32,852 bases of DNA, taken from NCBI GenBank assembly GCA_902630915.1, contig CACOWD010000007.1, positions 1-32,852 on the forward strand, read 5' to 3'. This DNA comes from an uncultured Pelagibacteraceae bacterium (GTDB lineage Bacteria > Pseudomonadota > Alphaproteobacteria > Pelagibacterales > Pelagibacteraceae). The notes beneath the pieces were generated by a model. The model worked only from the letters and a program-made list of their open reading frames with translations. It did no database searches and was not told the origin of the DNA. The position numbers and the translations under genes are program-made. Within the stretch, counting starts at the first letter, position 1. Every line of letters begins with the position of its first letter. Below are positions 26,332-27,471 of this stretch, in pieces.

Positions 26332-26916
26332 ATGACAGAAACACCTTTTATGCCAAAAGCTACCGCTGTTTGGTTAGTAGAAAACACTACCTTGACCTTT
26401 AAACAAATAGCAGAATTTTGTAATTTGCATGAATTAGAGATTAAAGGTATTGCAGATGGAGATGTTGCTAAAGGTATAAAGGCATACAATCCGATCCTAG
26501 CAGGACAGCTGTCACGAGAAGAAATTGAAGAATGTTCTAAAGATCAAAATAAAAAATTAAAATTATTAAAAAAACTTGATAAGGTAGAAGTTCAAGAGAG
26601 AAAGAAACCTAAATATACTCCTTTATCAAAAAGACAGGACAGACCAGATGCAATTTTATGGTTATGTAAAAATGCTTCAGAATTAACTGATGGTCAAATT
26701 TCAAAACTTGTAGGAAGCACTAAAGGAACCGTTTCATTAATTAGAAAAAGAAGTTATTGGAATTTTTCAAACTTAAAGCCTAGAGATCCTGTTATTTTAG
26801 CATTATGTAGCCAGGAAGCTTTTCAAAAAAGTTTAGATAAAGCTAAAAGGAGAGTGGAAAGAGAAAAAAAAGCTAAATTAAAAGAGGAAAAAAAGGCTCA
26901 AGAAGCTTCTCTATAG
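26332..26916 (+). CDS. DUF1013 / TrcR-type alphaproteobacterial transcriptional regulator
   Basis: A 194-residue cytoplasmic protein of the DUF1013 family, which is essentially alphaproteobacterial and is now often called TrcR, a cell-cycle transcriptional regulator. Recognisable segments are MPKATAVWLVENTTLTFKQI, AFNP-like AYNPILAGQLSREEIE, RPDAILWLCKN and SKLVGSTKGTVSLIRKRSYW. Two helix-turn-helix-like stretches (about 20-45 and 115-145) suggest DNA binding. The C-terminal 30 residues are a lysine/glutamate-rich helix. It lies three bases after rpmE and 50 bases before rpsU. The family is clear; targets are unknown. Confidence 0.85.
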   Translation: MTETPFMPKATAVWLVENTTLTFKQIAEFCNLHELEIKGIADGDVAKGIKAYNPILAGQLSREEIEECSKDQNKKLKLLKKLDKVEVQERKKPKYTPLSKRQDRPDAILWLCKNASELTDGQISKLVGSTKGTVSLIRKRSYWNFSNLKPRDPVILALCSQEAFQKSLDKAKRRVEREKKAKLKEEKKAQEASL

Positions 26917-26955
26917 ACAAACAAAGGATCAAGTGATAACAACCAAGAAATTAAC

Positions 26956-26961
26956 AGGAGG
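26956..26961 (+). promoter_or_regulatory. Consensus Shine-Dalgarno AGGAGG of rpsU
   Basis: AGGAGG is fully complementary to the anti-SD CCUCCU and lies five bases before the ATT that must start rpsU. It is the best match I noticed at any gene start in the window; most neighbours have weak or no SD. An in-frame TAA at 26952-26954 just before it rules out an earlier start. Confidence 0.85.
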
Positions 26962-26966
26962 TTTTT

Positions 26967-27161
26967 ATTAAGATAGACGTAAAAGATAATAATGTTGAAC
27001 AAGCAATTAGAGTTTTAAAAAGAAAACTTCAAAAAGAAGGTTTTTTTAAAGTAATGAAAATGAAGAGTACTTATGAGAAGCCGTCTGAGAAAAAAAAGAG
27101 AGTTCAAACTGAAAATATAAAAAGGATAAAAAAACTCCAAAAATTAAAAAATAGATATTAA
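26967..27161 (+). CDS. rpsU: 30S ribosomal protein bS21, probable ATT start codon
   Basis: Translating from ATT at 26967 gives a 64-residue protein reading (M)KIDVKDNNVEQAIRVLK, then RKLQKEGFFKVMKMKSTYEK and a lysine/arginine-rich tail, unmistakably bS21. The frame has TAA at 26952 and between it and the bS21 body only CAG GAG GTT TTT ATT AAG ATA, so no ATG, GTG or TTG exists. ATT five bases after AGGAGG is therefore the likely start; internal ATGs at residues 30 and 32 would remove half the protein. bS21 sits next to the anti-SD on the 30S platform and helps initiation. csp follows after 24 bases. Standard gene finders would miss or truncate it. Confidence 0.88.
   Translation: MKIDVKDNNVEQAIRVLKRKLQKEGFFKVMKMKSTYEKPSEKKKRVQTENIKRIKKLQKLKNRY

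Positions 27162-27394: not shown

Positions 27395-27471
<77 letters not shown>

Follow-up and report, generated by a model that had tools for sequence, protein, structure and literature searches.

How, and from which codon, translation of ribosomal protein bS21 begins is the question raised by the rpsU gene of an uncultured Pelagibacteraceae bacterium. The gene lies at 26967..27161 on the forward strand of the stretch of DNA analysed here (the window; 32,852 nucleotides), where the gene order is trcR-like gene, rpsU, cold-shock gene, tRNA-Met and typA, and it encodes 64 amino acids that are spanned by a Pfam Ribosomal_S21 domain (PF01165; residues 3-54, 58.8 bits with a cut-off of 27, 4.4e-16). 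An in-frame TAA at 26952..26954 closes the frame upstream and is followed by the codons CAG GAG GTT TTT ATT AAG ATA, and the closest in-frame ATG, GTG or TTG downstream of the ATT is 29 codons on, within the conserved bS21 body. The initial annotation held that rpsU has no ATG, GTG or TTG start and is read from the ATT at 26967..26969, five bases past the Shine-Dalgarno (SD) sequence AGGAGG (26956..26961) across a TTTTT spacer (26962..26966), and the window sequence bears out this anatomy. AUU is almost certainly the start codon in the window, and translation of rpsU in the Pelagibacterales begins at a near-cognate AUH codon behind one of the strongest SD sequences of the genome, with a short leader and a conserved promoter of its own.

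Start codon and Shine-Dalgarno sequence of rpsU

Among the best 120 of 2020 bS21 protein matches, those that are named are Pelagibacter or Pelagibacteraceae, and the 80 relative loci considered here are the best 80 of 181, all titled Pelagibacter or Pelagibacteraceae except L050 (Rhodospirillaceae). The start codon is ATT in 76 of these loci, ATA in 3, ATC in 1 and ATG in none, so that codon 1 of the 81 sequences, window included, is ATT in 77, ATA in 3 and ATC in 1. The presence of ATH at the same codon in all 80 relatives disposes of two objections raised at the outset, that a sequencing error lay behind the ATT and that close relatives would all have ATG (0 of 80), and its conservation indicates that the near-cognate start is real. 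Between the upstream stop and the ATH codon, 79 of the 80 relatives have no in-frame NTG, and the sole in-frame TTG (L080) overlaps the SD. Isoleucine codon 14, unlike codon 1, is mixed (ATA 47, ATT 26, ATC 8), and codon 3 is as invariant as codon 1 (ATA 80, ATT 1), so part of the constraint may apply to the entire start region. Several NCBI-named bS21 homologues of 64 amino acids place the methionine at the ATT codon, an annotation that is independent but rule-based. Many metagenomic bS21 predictions begin with MEV(F/V)IKI, a translation of the SD and its spacer (CTG GAG GTT TTT ATT in relatives); a prediction of this type has a mis-set start.

The window SD pairs with the SAR11 16S tail with an energy of -11.0 kcal/mol. 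This tail is GGATTACCTCCTTTCT in six of the seven members of the order in which it was found (12 were asked), and GGATCACCTCC in the seventh, G081, which belongs to the second group described below. In the SAR11 tail (L411-L416), GGATTACCTCC takes the place of GGATCACCTCC in six of the seven genomes where it was found. That rpsU stands among genes with weak SDs, as had been remarked, also holds, since -11.0 kcal/mol is reached by none of 32 open reading frames in the window, 1 of 171 in 220 kb of the relative G002 and none of 157 in 180 kb of G036, a comparison that is approximate because the frames (at least 120 amino acids) come from a simple ORF caller. Pairing energies in the 80 relatives range from -9.1 to -11.6 (median -10.0), and GG[AG]GG lies five bases before the start in 80 of the 81 sequences and six bases before it in one. 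The longest exact pairing run is 7 in the window, and in the relatives it is 6 in 59, 7 in 12 and 8 in 1. An rpsU SD far above those of the other genes of the genome, one trait of the rpsU autoregulation known from Bacteroidota, is thus found here; another such trait, an extended SD of 9-13 pairs, is not found in the window or the 80 relatives; the rpsU SD is generally one of 6-7 pairs. A scan for GGAGG and ATH lacking a nearby NTG returned rpsU in the window and in G002, as well as one further frame in G002 (L396), and gave no match in G036.

Promoter and leader

The predicted rpsU promoter (26914..26942, forward strand) consists of a -35 element TAGACA (26914..26919), a spacing of 17 bases and an extended -10 element TGATAACAA (TG at 26934, hexamer at 26937..26942). 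Its -35 element overlaps the TAG stop codon of the trcR-like gene (26332..26916, forward strand; Pfam TrcR, 8.2e-57), and its position predicts a leader of about 20 nt. TAGACA-17-TGNTANNN[AT] occurs in 81 of 81 sequences and at 20 of 1620 random places, and the promoter is unusually invariant. A leader peptide beginning at the ATG or GTG of the conserved TGATAAC block was considered and rejected, since the distance from the block to the start is not constant (34 bases in the window but 35 in L001) and the upstream frame is therefore not kept; the block is explained as the extended -10. A structured leader was also rejected, because the start region folds only weakly in the four sequences examined (-3.2 to -4.4 kcal/mol). 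A search of the window with Rfam gave two tRNAs and no other match above the cut-offs.

rpsU starts within the order and the class

A family search detected bS21 in 89 of 97 genomes from the order, and 87 loci were read (G046 and G101 were left out; G001 belongs to both this sample and the 80 relatives). Window-type loci number 46 (ATT 40, ATC 1, ATG 5). The other 41 loci form a second group in which the frame opens one codon earlier, with ATA in 40 and ATC in 1, behind AAGGAGGG-like SDs with a median pairing energy of -11.6; these have GTT, GTC or GTA at the codon aligned with the window ATT. An ATH start is kept in 82 of the 87 loci. The ATG form was found in 11 of 397 genomes by exact pattern search, and all 11 lack GGAGG, their SD pairing being +0.2 to +2.1. 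In a nucleotide tree of rpsU, a short gene that gives modest resolution, the ATG sequences (16 tips from the 11 genomes) form one clade (support 0.90) nested in ATT lineages. Because of this single nested clade, ATT looks the older state, with ATG appearing to have arisen once, together with loss of the SD.

Across the Alphaproteobacteria, 110 loci (one per genome; the 30 best-scoring and 80 more) start with GTG in 47, ATG in just 25, TTG in 15, ATC in 9, ATA in 7, CTG in 4 and ATT in 2, with one unclear. Near-cognate starts thus number 22, and some of them occur in loci of 60-71% G+C; two, L250 and L288, have an NTG two codons upstream that could be an alternative start. Nine of the 23 loci without an NTG start (the unclear one included) have no NTG at all before the upstream stop. 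The control genes, taken from 41 genomes drawn from the class, start almost uniformly with ATG, bS20 in 23 of 23 readable loci (7 of 30 not anchored) and bS16, counted by eye, in 26 of 27 (one GTG; 3 of 30 not anchored). Fisher's test gives p of about 1e-12 for the shortage of ATG in rpsU against each control, a value that serves only as a guide, given the relatedness of the genomes and the smaller size of the control draw. Start type does not correlate with SD energy across the 110 loci, and compensation by the SD was rejected as a class-wide rule (one-sided, ATG vs non-NTG, p = 0.29; vs GTG, p = 0.75; vs TTG, p = 0.61).

A sample of the phylum (28 newly listed loci, 4 not anchored) has ATG in seven of seven readable loci of gamma-like EPFD-type bS21, and the 17 DNNVDQ-type loci, four of which come from genomes already in the class set, have GTG in 13, ATG in 2, TTG in 1 and CTG in 1. 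Annotated rpsU starts are GTG on S. meliloti pSymB and ATG on a Rhizobium etli plasmid. In two pelagiphage records, out of eight phage records listed, the bS21 genes are annotated with starts of ATG in HTVC008M (L359:589-792) and TTG behind AAAGGAGG in Mosig (L360:595-804).

infC and the initiator tRNA

In the class, infC begins with AUA or AUC behind an SD in 26 of 30 loci, one of which could use ATT instead. Within the order, 19 infC loci were found. All seven found in the second group (eight genomes asked) begin with ATA and have an SD; the start is ATA or ATT in G021 and G066 and ATG in G013 and G019, and the remaining eight have GTG abutting the upstream stop, with no SD. infC was rejected as the AUU gene of window-type SAR11, since a search of 12 genomes (two with no match) gave 10 loci, all of them with GTG abutting the upstream stop and no SD. 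Genomes with the GTG form of infC cover both rpsU states, ATT and ATG, and most window-type genomes therefore keep AUU on rpsU while their infC is without AUH. The start of infC shifts within the Pelagibacterales between ATA with an SD, ATA or ATT, ATG, and GTG (L081-L090, L447-L465).

The tRNA-Met encoded after rpsU and the cold-shock gene (27395..27471, forward strand; ARAGORN) has C1 opposite A72, the hallmark of an initiator tRNA, and an anticodon stem of TCAGG/CCTGA. All 20 loci examined carry an initiator-type tRNA-Met in this position. The window and these 20 of the 80 loci share the anticodon stem (21 of 21) and, at what we take to be positions 29 and 41, all have an A29-U41 pair (21 of 21), where the E. 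coli initiator has G29-C41. The head of the E. coli 30S subunit is described as reading G29-C41 and G30-C40, and a swap of G30-C40 as lowering discrimination against CUG (PMC11497404).

Possible roles of the AUU start

The best overall explanation, to which we assign a probability of about one half, is that AUU and the strong SD throttle rpsU with a sensitivity to the initiation state of the 30S subunit. fMet-tRNA would pair with AUU with a mismatch at the third base, against which IF3 and the 30S subunit would discriminate; the strong SD would rescue initiation to a submaximal rate, and rpsU output would be set by SD-anti-SD pairing together with the strictness of start-codon inspection. IF3 is reported to repress non-canonical starts, which infC exploits for autocontrol (PMC5472188), and to tolerate non-Watson-Crick pairs at the third base only (PMC10158994). 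For S. aureus grown in poor medium, PMC13009471 puts the output of conserved AUU and AUA starts with strong SDs at about 10% of that from AUG. That AUU is kept by selection as a throttle, with the SD compensating, is likely in its own right because ATT is fixed at codon 1 while isoleucine codon 14 drifts, because the SD is an outlier and gain of ATG coincides with loss of the SD in one clade, and because rpsU is short of AUG relative to bS20 and bS16 and infC has a like anatomy of AUH and SD. The ATT and strong SD probably limit the amount of bS21 in SAR11, and they may regulate it.

Feedback on rpsU through bS21 or IF3 is a tentative proposal. On 30S subunits short of bS21, with a less obstructed anti-SD, or short of IF3, rpsU would gain in initiation relative to weak-SD genes that start with AUG, which would close a homeostatic loop on bS21. 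The discussion in PMC13009471 has bS21 in E. coli hindering an extended SD helix, and PMC9976891 describes ribosomes lacking bS21 as favouring the strong-SD rpsU in Flavobacterium. Conservation of the start, the class-wide shortage of AUG in rpsU and the near-cognate start shared with infC all fit translational control. Of the control proposed in the initial annotation, the non-canonical start and consensus SD stand, but start type and SD strength are uncorrelated in the class, and any loop would be dispensable, since one clade swapped ATT and the SD for ATG without an SD.

That trade is also what would be expected if level alone matters, and a fixed gain with no feedback, in which the near-cognate start gives a low constant rate from the gene's own promoter and the strong SD compensates, is a real possibility that we consider nearly as likely as the best explanation, a throttle sensitive to bS21 or IF3 occupancy. 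E. coli pcnB offers a precedent in its inefficient AUU start without a loop. What a fixed gain alone leaves unexplained is the avoidance of AUG by rpsU and infC, and not by bS20 and bS16, throughout the class.

A broader and rather unlikely form of the feedback reading would make rpsU a second class-wide initiation sensor. Like infC, rpsU would keep a non-AUG (often AUH) start and an SD, and synthesis of bS21 would scale with how far 30S subunits lack bS21 or IF3. The main SAR11 lineage would have given up the sensor start on infC but retained it on rpsU, so that the initiation-fidelity loop would have passed from IF3 to bS21, and the A29-U41 tRNA would help AUU.

Decay of an ancestral GUG or UUG start to AUH, rescued by the SD and of no advantage, might be expected in the A+T-rich genomes of SAR11, given that alphaproteobacterial rpsU most often starts with GTG (47 of 110); such drift is highly improbable against the ATT at codon 1 in 77 of 81 sequences where codon 14 is mixed, the ATH retained in 82 of 87 loci of the order and the near-cognate starts in G+C-rich loci. 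A true start elsewhere or a faulty assembly is hardly credible, even with ATA at codon 3 in 80 of 81 sequences and many metagenomic predictions opening upstream, as 80 separate genome loci agree, in-frame NTG codons upstream are confined to the SD-overlapping TTG of L080, the derived clade places its ATG at codon 1, and codon 3 is GTA in L132 and 11 bases from the SD in the window.

It is very unusual for a near-cognate start to be kept across most of an order, and here the product is a ribosomal protein located next to the anti-SD. Should rpsU be controlled at this codon, start-codon inspection would be the means by which one of the most abundant groups of bacteria tunes its ribosomes. Genomes with ATT and an SD and those with ATG and no SD provide a ready natural comparison, and automatic calls of rpsU starts in Alphaproteobacteria are often wrong.

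Comparison with known systems

In the open-access literature, as searched by titles and the beginnings of abstracts (subscription journals lay outside this scope), no near-cognate rpsU start was found described. Streptomyces sigR, whose GTC start is reported to be repressed by IF3 (PMC5472188), is a gene other than infC in which a rare start is a control point; it differs in being a sigma factor gene with GUC that was tested with IF3 mutants. The cvfC1 and ccpN genes of S. aureus and B. subtilis, as described in PMC13009471, combine a conserved AUU or AUA with an extended SD much as SAR11 rpsU combines AUH with a strong SD, although they are other genes in another phylum. The autoregulated rpsU of Bacteroidota is the same gene, and in both groups a strong SD stands out in a weak-SD genome; the account in PMC9976891 gives it an SD pairing 9-13 bases and ribosomes that hide their anti-SD, in contrast to the 6-7 pairs and near-cognate start of SAR11 rpsU. 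Finally, infC, with AUU, AUA or AUC and autocontrol by IF3, encodes the discriminating factor itself, and in window-type SAR11 it mostly has GTG, whereas rpsU encodes a ribosomal protein for which feedback is inferred; what they have in common is that each belongs to the initiation machinery and opens with AUH preceded by an SD.
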